IMG/VR virus record: IMGVR_UViG_3300021091_005922
Span: 1-34,330 of that record
Length of the DNA: 34,330 nt
Reading direction: 5' to 3' (one strand)
Origin: a virus
Shown one piece after another: positions 4,628-34,330 of the stretch (within the stretch, counting starts at the first letter, position 1; the number at the start of each line of letters is the position of its first letter). The notes beneath the pieces are model-generated. The model saw only the letters and a list, made by a program, of their open reading frames with translations, was not told the origin of the DNA and searched no databases. Made by a program: the position numbers and the translations under genes.

Positions 4628-6175
4628 TCACACTGGTTGAGTGTCGCTTATCTTAAATGCATTTGACACGGATTTGAATATTTTTTGAGTCCCACCGACG
4701 TTGACCATAACATCTATGGCATAGCTTCTTTCCTTAGTCAGGTTTGTCGTGTCGAGGGTGAAGTACATTCCGTCATAATCGCTACTTAGCTTACTTGAAC
4801 AGTAAGTTTCGTCAAACGGTATGACTATCTCATTTGTTTCGATATCCCTAACCTGATAGTATGCTTTTCTTACGACTATTCCTGATAGTTCTATGGGACG
4901 TTTCACAAGCTTGATGTTCGGAGATGAATAATCGAATACATTTACTCTTACAAGGACGCTTTCGTCAATCCTGTGTAACGTCTGCAGCCCAGAAGTCGTC
5001 ACAACGTAGTTCTTGAAGTCTATGACCTTATTTGCTCTCTCTGCAGCATGAACCGTCAAAGAGCTTCCAGTGAAGTATGCTACAGAGTTGTCCAACGATG
5101 TCCAAATCGGTGTGAATATGACTGATCCTGACTTGATCAACTCTTCCTTTAGGACGGAATCTGTGTCTGGCACCGTGAATGAAGCAGAGTACACGCCAGT
5201 TGAGAAGTTCAATCCATCAGAATGTTGACTTCCCGTGAAGTATAAGTCATAAGATCCTGATCCGTCAGATCGAACTGTTCTCATCCTAAGAATGATGCTG
5301 TTAGATCCAGTTATTTGAGTTGCAGATGAACCGCTTGTTATGTTTGCAGGTTCACCAAACTCATAGTTTCTCAAAAATATGCTAGATCTTGAACCAAAAC
5401 GCAGTATCTGCGAGTCATCCTGTATCGTGTCATCATATTTGACGACAAGCCGTGGGTGTTTCGCTTCATTGTATGCCGACCTTGAAGCAAATCTTTTGAC
5501 GAAGTAAGAATATTGATCATTTTCTTGTGTTGAAGATAGGGATAATCTGAATCCACTGTCTGGTAGCACACCTGCCAATGTTGCAGACACAATTTTTGTC
5601 ACGTCTATAGTTAGATCTTCTTCACCAGTTGAAAAATGTTGGGTTTTTTCGAGGTTTGTTCCTCCTAGAACGGCAGAAGAAGTTATAAAATCGCACGTCT
5701 CTTCCGCGCCGCCGCCGCGGCCGCAACCTGATAGTATCCAAGATCCGCTTCCAAAAGAAGACGTCATAAAATTTGCTGAATCAAAGTCAGAATAGTAGAC
5801 TACGTCTCTACCGGATCCTTCATCAAATGATCTTGATAGAGGAAACAATGAAACATCAAAATTAGAAGGGGTAGTTTGTCCTCCGTATACGTCAAACATT
5901 TTTAAAGAGCAATTAAAATTGGTCTTATTGGTGTTTAACTTACCTTTAGAGATCAGATCCTTCAAGGGTTGAAGATTGAAATGAATCAGCAACCTCGATA
6001 GCTCTATATTTGCTTCATCAGTGACTTGATCAGTTGATGCACCGTACAGTTTAAACAGATCCAACGATCCAGCTGATCCGACGTTGGAACCTGTGCGGAA
6101 AGACCCTGAACCAGCGATTCTAATGAATCGATTCGTGATGTATGTGTCCTTGTCTGCCTTTAGAACTCTGTACAT
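4628..6175 (-). CDS. Tail/baseplate adhesin-like protein with DNRLRE-type N-terminal domain
   Basis: 515 residues starting MYRVLKADKDTYITNRFI. The N-terminal half resembles DNRLRE/CBM96-type beta-sandwich domains of surface proteins: an early TYI strand, then GSNVGSAGSLDLFKLYG, and near residue 250 the typical closing strand AKHPRLVVKYDD. The C-terminal third is beta-rich and ends in an immunoglobulin/fibronectin-like stretch. I chose the ATG at 6175, which begins one base after the gp6-like TAA; a longer reading would need a TTG at 6196 inside the upstream gene. Around residues 150-160 a Gly-rich loop (SGCGRGGGAEE) is encoded by an unusually GC-rich patch. The sandwich domain and baseplate context suggest a structural, perhaps receptor-binding, protein; exact role unknown. 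Confidence 0.68.
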   Translation of the reverse strand: MYRVLKADKDTYITNRFIRIAGSGSFRTGSNVGSAGSLDLFKLYGASTDQVTDEANIELSRLLIHFNLQPLKDLISKGKLNTNKTNFNCSLKMFDVYGGQTTPSNFDVSLFPLSRSFDEGSGRDVVYYSDFDSANFMTSSFGSGSWILSGCGRGGGAEETCDFITSSAVLGGTNLEKTQHFSTGEEDLTIDVTKIVSATLAGVLPDSGFRLSLSSTQENDQYSYFVKRFASRSAYNEAKHPRLVVKYDDTIQDDSQILRFGSRSSIFLRNYEFGEPANITSGSSATQITGSNSIILRMRTVRSDGSGSYDLYFTGSQHSDGLNFSTGVYSASFTVPDTDSVLKEELIKSGSVIFTPIWTSLDNSVAYFTGSSLTVHAAERANKVIDFKNYVVTTSGLQTLHRIDESVLVRVNVFDYSSPNIKLVKRPIELSGIVVRKAYYQVRDIETNEIVIPFDETYCSSKLSSDYDGMYFTLDTTNLTKERSYAIDVMVNVGGTQKIFKSVSNAFKISDTQPV

Positions 6176-6176
6176 T

Positions 6177-8009
6177 TTACATCGATGTCCTTCCAATTAT
6201 GTCGCTATCAGGAAATTTAAACTCAAATATCCCTCCAGGAGGTGGGTACAATATGCCTTTTCGGATGTTGCTCTTAACGTCAAAAGTTACGTCGCTGTAT
6301 TGTCGATTGTTGACTATGCCTGAGTAGTTTCTAAACTCAAGATTGGTCACAGATAGAACGCCTTGAGTCGTGTAGATAGTGTTCTGTATGTCAGATATAA
6401 CGATAGGTTGATCGATTGAAAAATTCGTTACATCTAATTGGGTATTGAGTGCGCTCAATGCATTTTGCAACACGATTTGTCTGTTTAATGAAGGGTCAAT
6501 CACGACTTCAAAGAGCAATGAAAGATTCACGATGTAAGCATCTAGTATGTCTATCGCATCGCTGATTAGACGATACGGAGCTAGGTACTTCTTTAGGTTT
6601 TCTTTCAGCGTGTCTGCAGAGTTGATCAACGTAGAGTTAGGAGTTCTTGAAACGATGAACAATTGAGTCGACAATGGATTCGTCGGGTTTGATCTGACCG
6701 CAGCCCTAAACACCCTACCAAAGTTTGACGGTATGGAATAGACTCTTGCTAGGAGGTCTTCTCTTGTCACTATTCTCTCTTGTGCATTTCGTGCAGAAGG
6801 TATCAAGGCCTTCAATTGATCGACGGAAGGAGCATCTTCTCCACCAGACGCTTGCTTTTGATTGGAGACGGATAGCTTACTTCTTACGAATGTTATCACG
6901 TCGAATGTAGGATTTAGAGGAAACTCTATCGATAACTGGTTTATTGAATTTATTGTCTCTGGGGATGCATTGTGGTTTAATCCGCCACCGTATCGGTACG
7001 TTACAGTGACCTGAGAATTTGCGGCATATATTCCTAAAGTTCTCGTATTCAATAGTTGCAATGGGTTGATCGACGTTCTTGAAAATGTCTTTGAATAAGG
7101 AAGCGACACTGCAAAGTCTGAAGGATCAGGAACAGCGTCATTTTCAATATTAGCATCGTTTCCTGCTCCGAAAATAAGAGTCGTTGATCTAGTCGCAAGA
7201 TCATTGACGGTCACAAACCTATAAGGAGCCGGGACGACCTTCAACGCTTCAGATATTTCTTCAGAGTCTCTAGCTAGGTTCAGCACGTTCCTGTACACAA
7301 CATCATCAGTCATAGAGCTTACTTGGTAATAAGTGTTACCTTGATCGTCAATGACAGATAGAATGTCTGTGACGTTGGGCTGCGTTAATGTAAATGTCTT
7401 AAACGGCGTGAATTGACCGAAAGTAAAAGTCTCTGTTGTTTCAGTTCCTGAAACGCAAGTTCCAACAAGCGACATTATGAACGTTGCTGGTGAACCGTCT
7501 TGGTTCAAGATGCCGATCTGTATGTTTGCAGCGTACGTTCCATCTGATTTCTTTTTTGAGAAGTCTACGTCACTCAGCAGGTTGAACTTTACTCCATTCG
7601 TTGCCAAAAAAATAGAATTAGACTTGACGATAGGCAATGCGCTAGGGGATGGAACTATCGTGTTACTAATTGTGACAGCAGGTACCTCTATGTAGATGGT
7701 GACATCTGCGAGAGCTGGAGAAGCACCGACTATTTGAACGCCAGATGATCGTATAAGTTTTTCTATATTAGATGTTTCTACTGCCGTTGTTGGATCAAGC
7801 TCAGAGTATTGATGATCCAAATAGAACGACATGACATCGCCGGCATACGCTGCAAGATCTAAGAATACTCCTCCAAGAGATGTTTCAGAAAAATCTTGTA
7901 TCCTGTCCGGATAATACAAGGTAGCGTACTGCAATAACTGTGCCCGAAAGGCATCAAAATCCCTAGCCAGATATGATCTAGTCCTAAACTGTTTTAATTC
8001 TGTTGCCAT
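6177..8009 (-). CDS. gp6: Baseplate wedge protein, T4 gp6-like (baseplate J family)
   Basis: 610 residues, close to T4 gp6 (660). The N-terminus carries the family pattern: SYLARDFDAFRAQLLQYA, then FSETSLGGVFLDLAAYAGDV and MSFYLDHQYSELDPTTAV, in which a short tail protein is told to fold against its neighbours early in the chain. The C-terminal half contains LIPSARNAQERIVTREDLLA and FGRVFRAAVRSNP, typical of gp6/baseplate-J proteins. In T4 gp6 forms the dimeric ring that joins the wedges of the baseplate. A GGTGA Shine-Dalgarno-like sequence lies about 5 bases before the ATG, and the gp25-like gene is immediately upstream, the usual partner order. No truncation or missing segment is evident. 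Confidence 0.9.
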   Translation of the reverse strand: MATELKQFRTRSYLARDFDAFRAQLLQYATLYYPDRIQDFSETSLGGVFLDLAAYAGDVMSFYLDHQYSELDPTTAVETSNIEKLIRSSGVQIVGASPALADVTIYIEVPAVTISNTIVPSPSALPIVKSNSIFLATNGVKFNLLSDVDFSKKKSDGTYAANIQIGILNQDGSPATFIMSLVGTCVSGTETTETFTFGQFTPFKTFTLTQPNVTDILSVIDDQGNTYYQVSSMTDDVVYRNVLNLARDSEEISEALKVVPAPYRFVTVNDLATRSTTLIFGAGNDANIENDAVPDPSDFAVSLPYSKTFSRTSINPLQLLNTRTLGIYAANSQVTVTYRYGGGLNHNASPETINSINQLSIEFPLNPTFDVITFVRSKLSVSNQKQASGGEDAPSVDQLKALIPSARNAQERIVTREDLLARVYSIPSNFGRVFRAAVRSNPTNPLSTQLFIVSRTPNSTLINSADTLKENLKKYLAPYRLISDAIDILDAYIVNLSLLFEVVIDPSLNRQIVLQNALSALNTQLDVTNFSIDQPIVISDIQNTIYTTQGVLSVTNLEFRNYSGIVNNRQYSDVTFDVKSNIRKGILYPPPGGIFEFKFPDSDIIGRTSM

Positions 8010-23096: not shown

Positions 23097-24071
23097 TTAT
23101 TTTGCTTTCTTTACTTGCTCTTCAATCCAAGCATACGTTTTTTCTATGCCTTGCCGAAGAGACAATGAAGGTTTCCATCCTAGCTTTTCTTCGATCAATC
23201 TGTTGTCTGAATTTCTTCCCATAACGCCTGCAGGTCCTTCGACGTTTTTTATCTTTAAATCCTTTGAGGAAACTTCAATGATCATTTTTGCAAATTCATT
23301 AATTGAAATCATTTCCTCGGAACCAATGTTTACAGGCCCTTCAAACGTTGAGTCCATCAATCTTCTGACGCCATCGACACATTCATCGACGTACAAAAAT
23401 GACCTAGTTTGAACTCCAGGACCCCACACTTGGATTGTGCCACCCTCTTTGGCTTCTGCGACTTTTCTGCACAATGCAGCGGGGGCTTTTTCTTTTCCTC
23501 CCTGCCACGTTCCTTCAGGACCGAATATGTTGTGAAACCTTGCGACTCTAACTTTTAGTCCATAGTTTCTTGCAAATGAAAAATAAAGTCTTTCGCTAAA
23601 AAGCTTTTCCCATCCGTATTCGCTGTCTGGAGCTGCTGGATATGCTGAGCTTTCGCTGCATAACGGATTTTCAGGATCTTCTTGGTTATATGCTGGATAG
23701 ATGCATGCAGAAGATGAATAAAAGATCTTTGGAGTAATTTTTAATTTTGAAGCAGTGTGAGCAACGTTTAGATTTATAGTCGCAGAGTTATGCATCACGT
23801 CAGCATCATGATCGCCTGTAAAAATGTACCCTGCGCCACCCATGTCTGCAGCAAGTTGATACACTTCATCAAGTCCTGACTCAAGTTGTATGACTTGATC
23901 AACGATTCTAGGATCCCTTAGATCTGCAACGACAAAATCGTCTGCACACGTTTCGCTGAATTCAGGAAGCTTTAAGTCTACGCCTCGAACCCAATATCCT
24001 TCAGATTTAAGGCGCTTTACTAGATGAGATCCTATGAAACCTCCTGCTCCGCAGACTAACGCTGTTTTCAT
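23097..24071 (-). CDS. GDP-mannose 3,5-epimerase-like enzyme
   Basis: 324 residues, near the length of the catalytic core of plant GME. Rossmann GAGGFIG is at 8-14. Family hallmarks are AADMGGAGYI, SSSACIYP with C123, EYGWEKL with Y152 and K156, HNIFGPEGTWQGGKEKAP with K195, QTRSFLYVDECVDGVRRL, and PVNIGSEEMISINEF, then GRNSDN near the C-terminus. In plant GME the corresponding Cys and Lys act as acid/base for epimerisation at C3 and C5, giving GDP-L-galactose (and some GDP-L-gulose). The match along the full length is strong. The gene starts inside the stop of the carbamoyltransferase gene (ATGA). It would supply a GDP-L-sugar to one of the transferases here. Confidence 0.9.
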   Translation of the reverse strand: MKTALVCGAGGFIGSHLVKRLKSEGYWVRGVDLKLPEFSETCADDFVVADLRDPRIVDQVIQLESGLDEVYQLAADMGGAGYIFTGDHDADVMHNSATINLNVAHTASKLKITPKIFYSSSACIYPAYNQEDPENPLCSESSAYPAAPDSEYGWEKLFSERLYFSFARNYGLKVRVARFHNIFGPEGTWQGGKEKAPAALCRKVAEAKEGGTIQVWGPGVQTRSFLYVDECVDGVRRLMDSTFEGPVNIGSEEMISINEFAKMIIEVSSKDLKIKNVEGPAGVMGRNSDNRLIEEKLGWKPSLSLRQGIEKTYAWIEEQVKKAK

Positions 24072-25744
24072 GTCTTCCTTTTTTCAACAATAACTCTATA
24101 ATCGTAAAAATACAAATAATCAATGTTTGTTTTCAAGAAACAGTTGATTGCATGTTCAGGGGTTTCGCATATTGGTTCTCTATCATTAAAGCTTGTGTTC
24201 AGCACCATCGGAACGCCTGAATATTCATTCCATTTTTTGATGAAATTGTAATACCATTTGTTCAAATCTTCAGTAACTGTTTGCAATCTACCAGAACCAT
24301 CAACATGAACGACGCCAGGAACTCTTGACTCCGATCCTTTTTTGAATTGAATGATCTTGTCCATATAAGGACTTTCAACGTCTTTTTCGAACCATTCAGA
24401 GGTGTGCTCTCTTAAAATAGATGGAGCAAAGGGGCGGAACCATGCTCGATGCTTGACTTTTTCATTAATGATATTCTTTATGTTGTGGCTCCTCGGATCT
24501 GCCAAAATGCTTCTGCATCCTAAAGCCCTACGGCCTGACTCTGACCCTCCGCCAAATACAGCTATGATCTTTTCATCACCTAAAAGATGCATCACTTCAT
24601 CATCGCTGCTTTGTCTAGAAGATATCAAATCTGATTTTTTCTGAACATCTGATAGAACTGCTTCTTTAGAAAAGACTTGTCCCAAATATGGAGACAGAAT
24701 CTTGCTGTTACGAGGATTGTCAAGCATGTGATGCCAAACGTATTGACAAGCTCCTAATGTTAATCCTCCATCGTATGGTGTCGGAGTAACATAAATGTTA
24801 TCGATATATTTTGAAAACTTGTCGTACATTTTTCCGACTGCAACAGTGTTTAGAGCGACGCCTCCTGATAAACATAGATTTCTAGACTTGGATGATTTAA
24901 GATAGTGTTCCATCACTTCAAACAAGACTTTCTCTGTTGCTAACTGCAAACCGCCTGCAACGTCGAAAGAATCTTGTTCTGACAAATCTGAAATTTGTTT
25001 TAGCTTTCTGATGTTTTCTCTAGATGATTCTTTGTTTTTTTCAAAATCTATCAATAAAGGCATCAACATCGATGCGTAGTGGTTTGCTTTATTGCTGTTT
25101 GCAAATGATGCCATGGCCATCACTGTTCCTGCCTGAGAACCTCGTGGATATCCAGTGCTGAGACCAAAGATGTTACTAACGCATAAATCCCAACACATTC
25201 CTATGTTGAGGTTATGCTGGCCTGGTTTCATTTCAATTGGATTTATCTTCGTTCCTTTTCCTTCATAGACAAAAAATGACCCACAACGATTTGCATCATT
25301 CGGCGTCGGCTCATGACCTCCGCCGTCAATCGTAAAGATTATTGCATCATCGAGTGTGCTTGAGAAGAAAGCATTAGCTGCGTGACTCGTGTGATGAGAA
25401 ACAAATATGACCTTTCTTCCTCTCGCGGCGCACAGCGACTCAACTTTATTGATACAATTTCTAAAAGCATCATCAGAAACGCCTCCGGGACAGTGCCTGT
25501 CGGTGGGAGGATTTCCGTAAGATCCAAATCTGTGTTTTGACAGAGGAGGCTGACTGACAGTGACCCAATAGTCTATAGATTCTACAATGTCTTTATGGTC
25601 TTCAAAAACATACTCAAGTGTGTTGGACATCGTTTCTTTCATTCTGTTGTAACGTTCTATTTCTGCATGGATGAGAACTTCACCATTCTTCATGATGCAA
25701 TAGGACGCGTCGTGCGATGGCCACCAAGAGCAAACTAAAGTCAT
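24068..25744 (-). CDS. NodU/CmcH-type O-carbamoyltransferase (copy 1)
   Basis: 558 residues with both domains of the family. The N-terminal Kae1-like part has HDASYC at 11-16, the metal-binding HHTSHAANAFFSS with H117 and H121, and FTIDGGG with D140; then GTVMAMASF and LCLSGGVALNTVAVGKM. The C-terminal YrdC-like part contains ESGRRALGCRSILADPR and WFRPFAPSIL. These enzymes make carbamoyl-AMP from carbamoyl phosphate and ATP and pass the carbamoyl group to a hydroxyl, usually on a sugar or antibiotic. It is clearly paralogous to the 544-residue copy at 29932-31566. It sits between the epimerase and a row of glycosyltransferases, suggesting a carbamoylated glycan. An AGGT Shine-Dalgarno-like sequence lies 8 bases before the ATG. 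Confidence 0.92.
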   Translation of the reverse strand: MTLVCSWWPSHDASYCIMKNGEVLIHAEIERYNRMKETMSNTLEYVFEDHKDIVESIDYWVTVSQPPLSKHRFGSYGNPPTDRHCPGGVSDDAFRNCINKVESLCAARGRKVIFVSHHTSHAANAFFSSTLDDAIIFTIDGGGHEPTPNDANRCGSFFVYEGKGTKINPIEMKPGQHNLNIGMCWDLCVSNIFGLSTGYPRGSQAGTVMAMASFANSNKANHYASMLMPLLIDFEKNKESSRENIRKLKQISDLSEQDSFDVAGGLQLATEKVLFEVMEHYLKSSKSRNLCLSGGVALNTVAVGKMYDKFSKYIDNIYVTPTPYDGGLTLGACQYVWHHMLDNPRNSKILSPYLGQVFSKEAVLSDVQKKSDLISSRQSSDDEVMHLLGDEKIIAVFGGGSESGRRALGCRSILADPRSHNIKNIINEKVKHRAWFRPFAPSILREHTSEWFEKDVESPYMDKIIQFKKGSESRVPGVVHVDGSGRLQTVTEDLNKWYYNFIKKWNEYSGVPMVLNTSFNDREPICETPEHAINCFLKTNIDYLYFYDYRVIVEKRKT

Positions 25745-28982: not shown

Positions 28983-29932
28983 TTCTTTACCTGCAGCATT
29001 GATTCAACGACGTCTAGATAAGATCTTATAGCTCTTGTTGAAGACAAAAAATCATAATCAATTTTTGACACAAGATCATCATATCTAGAGACGACTTCAT
29101 CAATAGACTTCAATAGTTCATCGCTAGAAGAGAAAGAAACTCCATGAGATTTACAGCCCTCTACGATTCCACCACCTTCTTTGTGATAGACGACTGGTAG
29201 TCCAGATGATGCTCCTTCAATGTGATGCATACCGCAAGGCTCCCACCTAGAAGCAGTCACATATACGTCATGTTTTCTTAGTTCATCGCCCAAATCTTTA
29301 CCGTGAAGAGGTTTGATGATCTTGGTCGCAGCAGGAGAATATTCTTTTGCATATCTACCGATGTATGTGAATTGATACCTCTCTGGATTTTGACTGCACA
29401 ACATGTCGAGATGTTTGTAAGCATCAAATCCCTTCATCCAGTTGTCACTCCAATGATGCGTGACAATTTTGATTGGATATTGGATGGTTTTATTTTGAAG
29501 ATTTTTTTCAGGATAAAAGTGTGATGAATCGCAACCGTTGTAGATCACACTGCTGTTCTTGTTGAGCCCTTTTGAAATGAAATAGTCCCTCAGCCATCCA
29601 CTGATAAAGACTGTTTCATCTACAATTTGATTTGATGCCAACAACAGACCGTCAATTTCATTTGTGTTCTTTCTTGCATCACACTCATTGATCCTGTGCA
29701 GGATTTTTACCCCTGGATTCCTTTGCTTGTATGCAAAGATTTCATTGATTGAAATTCCAAGATCATCATATCGCGGATCAATCATGACGATCAAATCTAT
29801 GTCATTATGTGTCAAGTCATAGACAATGTGGTGTCCATGTTGAAGCAACGAATCATGGAACGATTTGACAAAATTGTTGCCACCGCCCCATGGACCGGTA
29901 ACAATCTTTCTGTTTATGAGAATCTTAGACAT
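28979..29932 (-). CDS. GT4-like glycosyltransferase
   Basis: 317 residues, GT-B fold. N-terminal MSKILINRKIVTGPWGGGNNFV has the Gly-rich loop; ILHRINECDARKN and SSVIYNGCDSSHFYPEK (about 127-143) mark the inter-domain region typical of family 4, and VTASRWEPCGMHHIEGASSG in the C-terminal half is the donor site with its E-x7-E pair. It is shorter than the other two GT4 proteins in the window, mainly in the N-terminal domain. The ATG shares one base with the TAA of the carbamoyltransferase upstream (TAATG), so the two are probably made together. Confidence 0.85.
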   Translation of the reverse strand: MSKILINRKIVTGPWGGGNNFVKSFHDSLLQHGHHIVYDLTHNDIDLIVMIDPRYDDLGISINEIFAYKQRNPGVKILHRINECDARKNTNEIDGLLLASNQIVDETVFISGWLRDYFISKGLNKNSSVIYNGCDSSHFYPEKNLQNKTIQYPIKIVTHHWSDNWMKGFDAYKHLDMLCSQNPERYQFTYIGRYAKEYSPAATKIIKPLHGKDLGDELRKHDVYVTASRWEPCGMHHIEGASSGLPVVYHKEGGGIVEGCKSHGVSFSSSDELLKSIDEVVSRYDDLVSKIDYDFLSSTRAIRSYLDVVESMLQVKK

Positions 29933-31566
29933 TATTGTTTTCTGCTCAAGATTTTAGAGTACTCTGGGAAGTACAAATAGTCTATCTTTGTTCCGAGGAA
30001 ACATTTAATGGAATGAGAGACGTCTTCACAGATGGGTTCTCTATCATTGAAACTTGTATTGAGGATGATCGGTACTCCTGACTTCTCTTTCCACTTTGTC
30101 AAGAAGTTATGATACCACTCGTTGTCTTCTTTTCTGACGGTTTGAAGCCGAGCTGTGCCATCTTCGTGAACGACTGCAGGAACGAGATGTTTTTTCTCTT
30201 CCTTAAACTTCAGAACAAATTGCATGTATGGACTCTCTTGATAATCAATGAACCATTCATGCGCATCTTCCTCAAGGATAGAAGGCGCGAACGGACGGAA
30301 CCACTTTCTATGTTTCACCTTCTCATTGATGATATCTTTCATATCATGGCGACGAGGGTCGGTAAGGATGCTTCTGTTTCCCAATGCGCGTCTTCCAGAT
30401 TCGCTTTGACCGTTAAATACTGCAACAATTTTTCCTTCATTTAGATGACTGATCATTTCATCTAAAGAGCAATCTTCAACTTGTACAGGAAAGTTTTTCA
30501 CGACTTTCTCAAAGTGATCTTGTGACCATACCTCACCGAGATATGGAGTGAAGTTGTGCTTCCATGTAATCCTTGGATTGTCTAATACCTCGTGCCAAAC
30601 GATCTGTGCAGCACCGATAGGAAGTCCTCCATCATACGGAACAGGCGGAATGTAGATGTTTTCAATCTCGCCTGGAAACCATGATCTAATCTTTCCCATT
30701 GCTACTGAGTTGAGAGCAACCCCACCTGAAATGCACAGGTTTTTTGATTTTACCGGGCTTGAATCGATAGCATACCTGATGATTTGCTTTAGAAGATCTT
30801 CAGTGGCAAGTTGAAGTCCTGCAGCAAGGTCAAATTTATCTTGCTCAGACTTTCTTGCAATCGCAGCCCAAGGTTCAAGATACGGATGAGGTGGATCTGC
30901 ATCGCTAGTTGCACCAGGAGGTTGATTGTGAGGCTTTACACTAGACGGTATGATATCAACCGTCAACATTTTTAAAAAATCTTTATGATACTTCTGAGCA
31001 TCACCAAATGCCGCCATGGCCATGACGGTTCCTTCTTCTCCACCGAGAGGCCATCCGTTTTGAAGTTTGAAGACGTATCTAGTTATTCTTGTCCAAACTC
31101 CACCGATGTTGACTTCATAAGGTTTAAATGACTTCAACTGCTTCATTGAGCGATCTTTTGCATACCAAATCGTGCATGCAGTCTCTCCACCATTTTCATC
31201 CTCAGATCCTCCACCATCGATGGTCAATACGATTGCTTCATCTAGGTTGCTTGAGTAGAATGCATTTGCTGCATGAGCCCTGTGATGAGAAAAGAAGTGA
31301 AATTTTCCGCCATTTTTCTTCGCTACTTCTTCTGCCGTCCTGTAAGATTCCTCATACTGTTTCGTCTTTTTCATCGGATGAACAGAAGCAAAATGCATAA
31401 CTTCATTGAAGTCTAGGCATGCTCTTTCTAGCATAAACTTGACTGCATCACCGGGAGGAGATTTTTCTCGATTGTACCGTTCGTATTCTGCGTGAATCGT
31501 CGGTTCACCGTCTTTTAAAATGCAAAAAGAACAATCATGCCCAGGCCAAATGCCAGCTACTTTCAT
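29932..31566 (-). CDS. NodU/CmcH-type O-carbamoyltransferase (copy 2)
   Basis: 544 residues and full length. Metal-binding HHRAHAANAFYSS has H94 and H98, LTIDGGG has D117; GTVMAMAAF, LCISGGVALNSVAMGKI, ESGRRALGNRSILTDPR and WFRPFAPSIL follow in the order of the family. It resembles copy 1 (24068-25744) along its whole length but many positions differ, so the copies are old paralogs or separate acquisitions, not a recent duplication. Different acceptors are plausible, for example two hydroxyls of one glycan. The start overlaps the HAD phosphatase stop by ATGA. Phage members of the family have been reported to carbamoylate hydroxymethylcytosine in DNA, so a DNA substrate remains a possibility. 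Confidence 0.92.
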   Translation of the reverse strand: MKVAGIWPGHDCSFCILKDGEPTIHAEYERYNREKSPPGDAVKFMLERACLDFNEVMHFASVHPMKKTKQYEESYRTAEEVAKKNGGKFHFFSHHRAHAANAFYSSNLDEAIVLTIDGGGSEDENGGETACTIWYAKDRSMKQLKSFKPYEVNIGGVWTRITRYVFKLQNGWPLGGEEGTVMAMAAFGDAQKYHKDFLKMLTVDIIPSSVKPHNQPPGATSDADPPHPYLEPWAAIARKSEQDKFDLAAGLQLATEDLLKQIIRYAIDSSPVKSKNLCISGGVALNSVAMGKIRSWFPGEIENIYIPPVPYDGGLPIGAAQIVWHEVLDNPRITWKHNFTPYLGEVWSQDHFEKVVKNFPVQVEDCSLDEMISHLNEGKIVAVFNGQSESGRRALGNRSILTDPRRHDMKDIINEKVKHRKWFRPFAPSILEEDAHEWFIDYQESPYMQFVLKFKEEKKHLVPAVVHEDGTARLQTVRKEDNEWYHNFLTKWKEKSGVPIILNTSFNDREPICEDVSHSIKCFLGTKIDYLYFPEYSKILSRKQ

Positions 31567-32186
31567 AATAAACTCTTATAAACTATGTTTAAAATATTGT
31601 GAAGATTATTGTATGTACAATGTCGAATATTTGATATTCCTGCAGCCATAGCTGCGTTTATTCCATCAACTGTATCCTCAAAAACAATTGAATTGTTAGG
31701 ATTAACATTCATTCGTTTTATTACTTCCTGATAAACGTCAGGAAATGGTTTCATTTTTTTATTTACCATTTCTGATGTTACGATTAAATCAAATAAACTT
31801 AAACAATTGTTACTTTCTAAAAATTCAATGATTGTTGCACTTGCAGCATCTGAAGCAATGCTAATTTTTTTATTTTTTAATTTGATTAATCTCAAAAGTT
31901 TAGGAACGTTTTGTTGAATCTTTAAAGTAGATATTTCTTTTATTGTTAAAGATTGTTTTAAATTCTCAATTTTAAAAATATCAGAGTTGTGTATCAACTG
32001 CAAATTGCAAAATTCGTTTAGTTTAACTATCGTTTTTTTATTTTTTACTTTTTCATATGTAACTTCAAAATCGTTATTCCATGAATAACCGCACGATTTT
32101 AATGCATTTATTAATGAAGTTTTATGAGCTAGTGATGAATCACATAACACTCCATCAAAATCAAATATAAATGCTTCAATCAACAT
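31563..32186 (-). CDS. HAD-family phosphatase (beta-phosphoglucomutase-like)
   Basis: 207 residues. Motif I is FDFDGVLCDSS with nucleophile D9 and acid/base D11; motif II is the Ser in ISIASDAAS; the Lys of motif III is in KKMKPFPDVYQEV; motif IV is IVFEDTVDGINAAMAAGI. The helical cap after motif I places it with the beta-phosphoglucomutase/phosphonatase type, not with GmhB. It overlaps the kinase gene by 11 bases and lies beside RfaE1/RfaE2-like genes, so it may take the place of GmhB in removing the 7-phosphate of heptose-1,7-bisphosphate. That role is inferred. Codon use is more AT-rich than in genes below 31.5 kb. Confidence 0.85.
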   Translation of the reverse strand: MLIEAFIFDFDGVLCDSSLAHKTSLINALKSCGYSWNNDFEVTYEKVKNKKTIVKLNEFCNLQLIHNSDIFKIENLKQSLTIKEISTLKIQQNVPKLLRLIKLKNKKISIASDAASATIIEFLESNNCLSLFDLIVTSEMVNKKMKPFPDVYQEVIKRMNVNPNNSIVFEDTVDGINAAMAAGISNIRHCTYNNLHNILNIVYKSLL

Positions 32187-32964
32187 CTTGTTGCCTTAAA
32201 ATAAAATTTCCAAAATGAGTTACTGAAATACTAGCACATTTATTTGCAAATATAATTGATTGGTCCAGCTCCTTCGTTTGAAGGTATTTATGCGTAAGTG
32301 AAGCTAAGAAGGTATCACCGGCCCCACAAACATCATAAAGTTTTGACTTTGCCGTAGGATAATGTTTATCTTTCCATTCTGCGCCATTTTCTCCTAACGT
32401 CACTATTAATTCAAATTTTTCTGGAAGAGATTGAACTTTTTGTTTTTCATATTTGTTAATTTTTATAATACAGTTAGAAAAGCAAGATAAATCTTGTTTT
32501 TTACTATCAACAAAAATTGGAATTGAACAATTAACAATTTGTACGATCTCTTTACAGGATTTAGGATTTAAAAATCCTTTATTGTAGTCAGATATAACTA
32601 ACGCATCGTACGTACTTTTTTGTAATGCTGATTTTACTTCGTCGATATTAATTTGCTTTACATCTGATGATTCTTCATCTACTCTTAAAAGATGAACAAA
32701 TCTTTTTTCTTCTACGTATCGATGTTTTATTATTTTTTCTTGTTGCGTAATTGTGTCAACAACCGACCCCAACCCTTCAAGATTTTTTGCAACGTTTAAA
32801 CACATCCCCGGTTTAGTTTCGGTTTTTGTTAATTTTAGAATTGGGATAGGTGCTTCTGGGCTGAGTCTTTCGCAAATTCCATAATGATAAACGTCTTGAC
32901 AACTATCACCTATCACCAAAATTCGAAACTGACTTTTTAATGATGTTTGTTGTAGAGTATCCAT
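32176..32964 (-). CDS. rfaE1: Heptose-7-phosphate kinase, RfaE1/HldE N-domain-like (PfkB family)
   Basis: 262 residues from the ATG at 32964. Family signature is FRILVIGDSCQDVYHYG, then RLSPEAPIPILKL, ALVISDYNKGFLNP, LIVTLGENGAEW and the anion-hole DVCGAGDTFLASL with the catalytic Asp. RfaE1 phosphorylates D-glycero-D-manno-heptose-7-phosphate at O1. It is a little shorter than the kinase half of E. coli HldE (about 318). A TTG at 32976 could add four residues, but the first strand lies just inside the chosen start. The gene begins 59 bases inside the RfaE2-like gene in a different frame, so the conserved VIGD motif overlaps the end of the adenylyltransferase. Confidence 0.88.
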   Translation of the reverse strand: MDTLQQTSLKSQFRILVIGDSCQDVYHYGICERLSPEAPIPILKLTKTETKPGMCLNVAKNLEGLGSVVDTITQQEKIIKHRYVEEKRFVHLLRVDEESSDVKQINIDEVKSALQKSTYDALVISDYNKGFLNPKSCKEIVQIVNCSIPIFVDSKKQDLSCFSNCIIKINKYEKQKVQSLPEKFELIVTLGENGAEWKDKHYPTAKSKLYDVCGAGDTFLASLTHKYLQTKELDQSIIFANKCASISVTHFGNFILRQQDVD

Positions 32965-33319
32965 CGACGTACTCAAATATTACAACCCGTTTTGCATATT
33001 GTTTTCCTACTATTTTTTCAAGCGTATAATCTCCTCCTTTGACCAAGATATCTGGTTTTAAATGAGATAATAAAACTTCAGGTGTATCTTCTTCAAAAAT
33101 GATGACTTCGTCTACAAACTTGATAGATTCTAAAACAACCTTTCTAGATTGTTGATCATTTATTGGTCTTGTTTTCCCTTTTAGCCTTTTTACGCTTTTA
33201 TCACTATTCAAACCCACTACTACTCGTCCATTTTTAGATATTTTTTTACATTCTTCAAGAAGTTTAATATGTCCTAAATGAATGATATCAAAACATCCAT
33301 TTGTAAAAACAGTAATCAT
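32906..33319 (-). CDS. rfaE2: Heptose-1-phosphate adenylyltransferase, RfaE2/HldE C-domain-like
   Basis: 137 residues from the ATG at 33319, whose ATGA overlaps the stop of the GT9 gene; a TTG at 33340 would be less likely. The nucleotidyltransferase signature is TNGCFDIIHLGHIKLLEE with the HxGH motif, GLNSDKSVKRLKGKTRP follows, and LKPDILVKGGDYTLEKI with KGGDY is the RfaE2-type substrate region. In E. coli the equivalent domain is fused C-terminally to the kinase; here it is a free protein encoded upstream of the kinase. It would activate heptose-1-phosphate to ADP-heptose. A cytidylyltransferase function on another polyol phosphate is the alternative. Confidence 0.88.
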   Translation of the reverse strand: MITVFTNGCFDIIHLGHIKLLEECKKISKNGRVVVGLNSDKSVKRLKGKTRPINDQQSRKVVLESIKFVDEVIIFEEDTPEVLLSHLKPDILVKGGDYTLEKIVGKQYAKRVVIFEYVDGYSTTNIIKKSVSNFGDR

Positions 33320-34161
33320 AATAAAAATTTCTTTGCGCAATCAACAATTTCTTTTTCATCATGATTGTTAACTGCATTCCAACAATCTTGACATCTAATT
33401 TTATTTCCACATGGACCATGATTTTCATGAATCCAAAAATTAAAATTTGATGGATAAGCAACCATGTCAGGATGTTGATAACCTGTAATTAAAACTATGG
33501 ATTTCGTTTTCATGGCTTGAGAAGCATGAGTTAATCCACCTTCTGTAGAAAGAAATAGTTGAGAAGATTCTATTATTCCTGCGCAAGTTCTAAATGTTGT
33601 TTTTGAAGTAATGTCAATGACATTTTTTAAAATATTTTTTGATTGACCTACTTGAACTACTGTTGTGTAATTACATAACTCATCAACAATTTTTTGCCAT
33701 TTTTCAAATGGATACTCTCTATTACACGTATATTCATTATTTGAATGAGGCTCTATAGCAATAAATTTTCTATCGCCTATTTGATCTTTAATTAAAGAAT
33801 TTACTTCTTTTTTTTCTTCTTCTGTCAAATAAATTCTACATTGTAGATCTTTTATGCTTTTTTGGATTCCATAAAATTCTAAAATTTGACATATGATATG
33901 TTTATCGTATCTATGCTTTGCAAATTTAGGTGTATCAATTTTACAATAGTTTGTTTCTTTTCTATTTAACGGAATGATTATGTAATCACCTTCATGAGAT
34001 TCTTCGATAACGTTAACGATTGAAGGATTATTGTAAAATATAGGACTGGATATCAATTTTGCATGTTGACCATGCATCTCTACAGGAAGTATTTTTTTTC
34101 CTGTAATTGAATGAATCTCATGAAACGCGGCGGTCCATGTCAAATATCCACCTAAGCCCAT
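33316..34161 (-). CDS. GT9-type glycosyltransferase (heptosyltransferase-like)
   Basis: 281 residues. The start MGLGGYLTWTAAFHEIHSIT fits the first helix and Gly loop of family GT9, FIAIEPHSNNEYTC at 133-146 is the start of the C-terminal donor domain, and FLSTEGGLTHASQAM at 203-217 the E/D-GG-x-x-H donor motif. A C-terminal cluster of cysteines (GPCGNKIRCQDCWN) is unusual for classical WaaC/WaaF. With ADP-heptose-type genes downstream, a heptosyl transfer is a reasonable inference. The start shares one base with the stop of the cupin gene (TAATG). Confidence 0.85.
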   Translation of the reverse strand: MGLGGYLTWTAAFHEIHSITGKKILPVEMHGQHAKLISSPIFYNNPSIVNVIEESHEGDYIIIPLNRKETNYCKIDTPKFAKHRYDKHIICQILEFYGIQKSIKDLQCRIYLTEEEKKEVNSLIKDQIGDRKFIAIEPHSNNEYTCNREYPFEKWQKIVDELCNYTTVVQVGQSKNILKNVIDITSKTTFRTCAGIIESSQLFLSTEGGLTHASQAMKTKSIVLITGYQHPDMVAYPSNFNFWIHENHGPCGNKIRCQDCWNAVNNHDEKEIVDCAKKFLL

Positions 34162-34330
34162 TAGTCACCTTTTTGTAATCTATAACTGTCTTCATCAAAA
34201 TGTTGCGTTGAAAACTCAAACATAACAGTATCTTCGATTGCTTCCATTTGATGAACCAAACCAGGATGTATTTCTTTAACATCACCAGGAGACAACACTA
34301 CGTTTTCTGTTTTATCACCATCTATGAACG
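34161..34330 (-). CDS. Cupin-fold protein, partial (5' end outside window)
   Basis: Reading into the window from the right edge gives 55 residues and the stop TAA at 34163-34161. The end of the protein contains VVLSPGDVKEIHPGLVHQME and MFEFSTQHFDEDSYRL, a small beta-barrel pattern with the spaced His and Glu residues of cupins such as sugar-nucleotide epimerases/isomerases and WbuC-like proteins. Only the C-terminus is visible, so the reaction cannot be named. It is translationally coupled to the GT9 gene and thus belongs to the glycan cluster. Confidence 0.7.
   Translation of the reverse strand, partial: FIDGDKTENVVLSPGDVKEIHPGLVHQMEAIEDTVMFEFSTQHFDEDSYRLQKGD

Follow-up and report, generated by a model that had tools for sequence, protein, structure and literature searches.

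A phage ADP-heptose operon with a cupin as its proposed sedoheptulose-7-phosphate isomerase

The DNA analyzed here, hereafter called the window, is the whole of IMG/VR virus record IMGVR_UViG_3300021091_005922, 34330 bases in length. At its right-hand edge it carries a cassette encoding a GT9-like glycosyltransferase, a nucleotidyltransferase, a kinase and a HAD phosphatase, next to the end of a cupin gene. We consider it likely that this is a phage ADP-heptose operon in which a cupin serves as the isomerase and the full route proposed below is followed. That the module is an ADP-heptose operon is very probable; that the cupin is its sedoheptulose-7-phosphate isomerase, a non-orthologous counterpart of GmhA, is probable on phylogenomic grounds. 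ADP-heptose is the precursor of the lipopolysaccharide (LPS) inner core, and animals sense it as a bacterial signal through ALPK1.

Kinase, nucleotidyltransferase and phosphatase

The four cassette genes are co-directional on the minus strand, have overlapping ends and span positions 31563–34161. The stop codon of the GT9-like gene (33316–34161) is overlapped by the ATG (33319) of the nucleotidyltransferase gene (32906–33319), the kinase gene (32176–32964) starts at 32964 within the end of the nucleotidyltransferase gene, and the HAD gene (31563–32186) begins within the end of the kinase gene. All four passed Pfam gathering scores (GT9, CTP_transf_like, PfkB and HAD_2, respectively). An earlier reading made from the letters alone, the sequence-only reading, had placed a heptose-activation module of these four genes here, and the set proved to be real, open, co-directional and Pfam-backed.

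The nucleotidyltransferase is an HldC/RfaE2-like heptose-1-phosphate adenylyltransferase by family, with HxGH and STTNIIKK motifs. Its best model was HldE domain II (TIGR02199), at 165.6 bits against a cut-off of 181.5. This is 110 bits above the score for the glycerol-3-phosphate cytidylyltransferase TagD (TIGR01518, 55.4 bits), a family with a cut-off of 165.4 bits to which the protein does not belong. A tree built from 93 nucleotidyltransferase domains separated the TagD rows from the HldE/HldC side at 100/100, and the window protein grouped with those of the related loci L002–L006 (100/100) among viral and cellular HldE/HldC proteins. The possibility, raised along with the sequence-only reading, that phylogeny would place the pair with non-heptose sugar kinases and glycerol-phosphate cytidylyltransferases was thus not borne out, the nucleotidyltransferase standing well apart from TagD.

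The kinase gave a similar picture. RfaE domain I (TIGR02198) was the best of all models at 149.3 bits, compared to 51.5 bits for ribokinase, and the curated TIGR02198 cut-off of 345 bits was not reached. The AlphaFold2 (AF2) model of the protein had a predicted local distance difference test (pLDDT) score of 90.7, and structural comparison by VIA returned Burkholderia HldA (4e84) as the best match (Z 28.4, 28% identity), with four HldA entries ranked first and the next family at 24.4. The NxxE and GAGD motifs are invariant in the kinase. Viral heptose kinases as a family are ≈50 residues shorter than HldA, with the predicted fold and the active-site motifs kept. We therefore call the window protein HldA/RfaE1-like, acting as a putative heptose-7-phosphate kinase, and not a full HldA member. 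By profiles, tree and predicted structure, the nucleotidyltransferase and the kinase belong with the heptose enzymes, and not with TagD or ribokinase; the family scores, the nucleotidyltransferase tree and the kinase fold agree with the ADP-heptose activation module claimed from the sequence.

The two enzymes might nevertheless act on another sugar phosphate, leading to a different ADP- or CDP-linked product. Both scores fall below the curated NCBIfam equivalog cut-offs, which weighs against a heptose assignment, the kinase is shortened, and there is no HldD beside the cassette in the window or in L005, where GT9 runs directly into the nucleotidyltransferase. We nonetheless consider this alternative very unlikely, given the wide score margins over other families, the tree and the HldA match, and given that the operon of near relatives includes a true HldD. 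In the viral relatives L003, L004 and L006, the gene order is cupin-GT9-epimerase-nucleotidyltransferase-kinase-HAD, and the L003 epimerase scored 318.9 bits, above the HldD equivalog cut-off of 274.6 (TIGR02197), a result that links the operon to ADP-heptose.

The HAD protein (PF13419, 88.7 bits) is of subclass IA according to profiles, its score for the beta-PGM-like subfamily TIGR02009 (96.5 bits) being below cut-off, and is 40–44% identical to the HADs in the same slot in L003, L004 and L006. GmhB is a HAD of subclass IIIA, of the histidinol-phosphatase type, so the window protein is not a member, as the sequence-only reading had noticed. We propose it as a substitute for GmhB because of its position and family. 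The GT9-like protein, of the heptosyltransferase family, scored 26.7 bits with PF01075 (cut-off 22) and has orthologues in the same place in L002–L006.

A cupin in the place of GmhA

The reading of the cassette outlined above leaves the isomerase step, usually carried out by GmhA. No GmhA was found in the window, as the sequence-only reading had noted in suggesting that the host might supply it. Nor did GmhA (SIS fold, TIGR00441) exceed the cut-off in any of 36 viral records, 7 of them complete cyanophage genomes; one weak SIS match, of 56 bits, came from G010. When we counted 58 viral nucleotidyltransferase loci with 2.5 kb on both sides, 57 had the kinase, 54 had a cupin and none had SIS/GmhA. 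In the window, an open frame running to the edge on the minus strand (34161–34328) encodes the C-terminal 55 residues of such a cupin, 54 of which are identical to the L004 cupin.

Scanning genomes with the viral cupins revealed archaea and bacteria with the operon cupin-HldD-kinase-GmhB-HldC. A survey seeded with HldD, in which the cupin was not used, covered one DPANN phylum (148 genomes) and one Patescibacteria phylum (192 genomes), with neighborhoods of up to 13 kb; operons were counted if they had a kinase or nucleotidyltransferase domain (n = 24). With the same gene order, 16 of these operons had GmhA only, 6 had the cupin only, none had both and 2 had neither (Fisher p = 2e-4, relatedness ignored). 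On an HldD tree that also includes loci found via the cupin, we counted ≈9 cupin/GmhA switches, 7 of them on well-supported branches, and relatedness therefore does not explain away the alternation. On this tree, L222, with GmhA, is sister to L224, with the cupin, and the gene order of the two loci is identical.

The alternation extends beyond the operons. In all six cupin genomes, a GmhA match was either absent or below 32 bits, in open reading frames of 326–644 residues (GlmS-like sizes), compared to 199–229 bits in six of six GmhA genomes. Conversely, 13 of the 16 surveyed GmhA genomes had no cupin match at 1e-6 and three had matches of 35–45 bits, compared to 123–160 bits in the cupin genomes, and the cupin profile exceeded 100 bits in only 1 of 31 HldE-bearing Pseudomonadota. 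Among 42 genomes with a cupin that was not near HldE, 30 had HldC/HldE, and 22 of these had no SIS match at 1e-10. The cupin also occurs fused to HldD (L150) and to the kinase (L146, L148, L229 and L251). A Pacearchaeota contig (L133:6983-8020) has the cupin joined in one protein with a sugar-phosphate nucleotidyltransferase; judged by eye, this partner is HddC-like, a hint that a version for GDP-heptose may exist.

If, as the sequence-only reading proposed, the host supplies GmhA, the cupin would be unrelated to the isomerase step. Gram-negative hosts commonly have the ADP-heptose pathway (the HldE kinase domain was present in 31 of 40 Pseudomonadota genomes), and some phages have partial sets, such as L024, L026 and L052, in which the kinase occurs without the cupin. 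A bystander, however, would not be expected in nearly all viral cassettes or to alternate with GmhA in cellular operons. A host-supplied GmhA is thus unlikely, and the evidence favors an isomerase encoded by the phage itself, namely the cupin whose last residues are found at the edge of the window.

The structure model of the full-length L004 cupin, encoded at 5910–6245 of that locus (pLDDT 97.8), had D-lyxose isomerase as its best Foldseek match (E 1.3e-8). By VIA, CapF came first (Z 15.8), while D-lyxose isomerase had a Z of 14.9 and the highest identity, 30%, so that the fold alone does not choose between them. A profile alignment to B. subtilis D-lyxose isomerase put a lysine, HxH, KxE, a histidine and a glutamate in register with the cupin. 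The D-lyxose isomerase from Thermofilum (TsLI) holds its sugar via K62, H75, H77, K86, E88, H143, E156 and D163 (PMC8378251). Matching these substrate contacts, K24, H37, H39, K42, E44, H82 and E94 were invariant in 39 aligned cupins; the counterpart of Asp163 is less certain (D101 or D103), consisting of a variable acidic site beside an invariant aspartate. The full cupins of the relatives thus have the hallmarks of the D-lyxose isomerase type, namely a cupin barrel, the metal ligands HxH, E and H, and the catalytic lysine and glutamate, of which the part inside the window shows just the last histidine and the glutamate. Enzymes of this class interconvert xylulose and lyxose, and fructose and mannose, giving manno/lyxo aldoses from ketoses. 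The conversion of sedoheptulose-7-phosphate to D-glycero-D-manno-heptose-7-phosphate is the same C1/C2 change. The cupin is not a GmhA member, as its fold is different from SIS; this denies membership, not function.

Several observations weigh against the cupin as a dedicated heptose isomerase. CapF and phosphomannose isomerase fit its fold equally well, and just 55 residues of the phage's own cupin are inside the window. Some cupin genomes have an off-operon SIS protein, scoring 92–124 bits in G051, G052 and G043 and 196–233 bits in G532, G519, G542 and G538. Among 80 cellular cupin loci, 48 were away from heptose genes, and HldC was not seen in 12 of the 42 genomes with an unlinked cupin; the cupin family may therefore have other sugar substrates. 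The genomes are mostly metagenome-assembled, of uncertain completeness, and phylogenetically non-independent. Clustering of the neighbors of unlinked cupins gave no widely shared partner, and heptose-linked and unlinked members were not separable on a cupin tree.

These points bear on a further alternative, in which the cupin has a general role, either of the phosphomannose type or in tailoring (as a mannose-6-phosphate isomerase or nucleotide-sugar epimerase, for example), and is co-inherited with surface glycan genes. Weak cupin matches to the MannoseP_isomer, GMP_PMI and WbuC models, the fold matches to CapF and Thermococcus phosphomannose isomerase (Z 15–16), the many unlinked cupins and the L133 fusion would all fit such a role. 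A tailoring enzyme would not, however, be expected to occupy the slot of GmhA to the exclusion of GmhA itself, to be fused to HldD and the heptose kinase, or to accompany HldC in 22 genomes with no SIS match, and we regard this explanation as quite unlikely. We prefer the reading of the cupin as a sedoheptulose-7-phosphate isomerase, and extend it, as a probable assignment, to this family of ≈110-residue cupins in many phages, DPANN archaea and Patescibacteria, and possibly Planctomycetota. Our literature search found no publication linking a cupin to sedoheptulose-7-phosphate isomerase, phosphoheptose isomerase or GmhA, bar one unrelated, with most subscription literature outside the search and prior art possible.

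Base composition, neighboring genes and cyanophage cassettes

The sequence-only reading had called the cassette AT-rich and apparently acquired. The first part is correct: the G+C content of the cassette genes is 0.26–0.32, compared to 0.403 ± 0.020 for the other 28 genes in the window (z −4.3 to −7.3). A sharp mosaic junction is found within the GT9 start, where the DNA at 34130–34330 is 97% identical to L004 and 91% to L006; the GT9 protein at the junction is 46–49% identical to its L004 and L006 counterparts (49% for L004). In the relatives L003, L004 and L006, cassette G+C is not consistently below that of the flanks, so that the low G+C and the junction in the window are the grounds for describing this cassette as apparently acquired.

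The next gene of the run (29932–31566, minus strand) encodes a NodU/Nol-like carbamoyltransferase (PF16861, 208 bits; phrog_1601), and its ATG (31566) overlaps the HAD stop codon. A second carbamoyltransferase of 558 amino acids, clearly related to the first, is encoded at 24068–25744. Also to the left of the cassette are further glycosyltransferases, an aminotransferase, UDP-sugar dehydrogenase and epimerase genes, and baseplate genes, which points to a tailed phage whose glycan region is large. The baseplate wedge protein (6177–8009) is nearest to those of Flavobacterium phage immuto and Microcystis phage Mel-JY01 (≈30% identity), not Kyanoviridae. A search for tRNA genes in the window found none.

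Phages carrying rfaE and other heptose genes have been reported previously (PMC7029224, PMC7378029). Such cassettes are already known from cyanophages and pelagimyophages, and a heptose module is not unusual for a phage. The kinase/nucleotidyltransferase pair is common in cyanophages, together with a small HAD, a cupin, an HldD-like epimerase and a carbamoyltransferase, the last adjoining the heptose cassette in many of them. We considered the cyanophage proteins labeled “phosphoheptose isomerase” as candidates for GmhA and rejected them: in the records examined, they are HAD proteins of ≈110 residues, those of P-SSM2 and Sf-FS3 begin with the HAD motif DIDGTIC, and the only model matched by the Sf-FS3 protein was a capsule phosphatase, below cut-off. 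In these records (L083:8734-9078 and others; T4-GC 306, 307), the small HAD is mislabeled as “phosphoheptose isomerase” and the cupin as “cysteine dioxygenase”. The “transketolase” of P-TIM68 (L086:6847-7992), located beside the heptose kinase, was likewise rejected as a source of sedoheptulose, as its best match was pyruvate-dehydrogenase E1; short as it is, the single protein matches both the alpha and the beta part of E1.

Proposed route and comparison with known systems

In the proposed route, the cupin would convert sedoheptulose-7-phosphate to D-glycero-D-manno-heptose-7-phosphate, the usual step of GmhA. The HldA-like kinase would phosphorylate C1, the HAD protein would take off the C7 phosphate (the step of GmhB), and the HldC-like enzyme would add AMP, yielding ADP-D-glycero-D-manno-heptose. 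The GT9-like enzyme might then attach the heptose to a surface acceptor, host LPS or a different one, and neighboring transferases and carbamoyltransferases might finish the glycan. In near relatives, HldD would epimerize the product. The window phage, whose cassette has no HldD next to it, would work with the D,D form. The analysis establishes which genes are present, the families they belong to, how consistently they are linked, and that cupin and GmhA alternate in cellular operons; we infer every catalytic activity in this scheme, and likewise what the HAD acts on, where the heptose goes and how the phage gains from it, a changed host LPS being a plain guess. If the route is correct, a second, unrelated isomerase fills a pathway gap in phages and in lineages with a seemingly partial pathway, phages can build a nucleotide sugar from a central metabolite without host GmhA, and the labels of the HAD and the cupin in cyanophage records are to be corrected.

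The cupin shares its barrel, the HxH...E...H metal site and the catalytic-type lysine and glutamate with D-lyxose/D-mannose isomerases (7NZO, 2Y0O). The known members of that class, however, act on free sugars and have ≈170–250 residues, whereas the shorter family described here goes with the metabolism of phosphorylated heptoses. Archaeal cupin phosphomannose isomerases (7ZVM, 7ZVY) are alike in size and fold, but have lower sequence identity (20–23%) and, to our knowledge, no heptose role. The cassettes of the Kyanoviridae cyanophages P-SSM2, S-SSM7 and S-CAM1 have the nucleotidyltransferase and kinase, cupin, HAD, HldD-like epimerase and carbamoyltransferase in common with the system described here; the window differs in having GT9 inside the run, another HAD class and another gene order, and its phage is of a different lineage, as judged by the baseplate protein. 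With the bacterial ADP-heptose pathway (GmhA, HldE or HldA plus HldC, GmhB and HldD), the module shares the kinase, the adenylyltransferase, the phosphatase role and GT9, as well as HldD in the near relatives. It differs in that the kinase is shortened, the window cassette has no adjacent HldD, a HAD of class IA (window) or a small capsule-phosphatase-like HAD (cyanophages) takes the place of GmhB, and a cupin that of GmhA.

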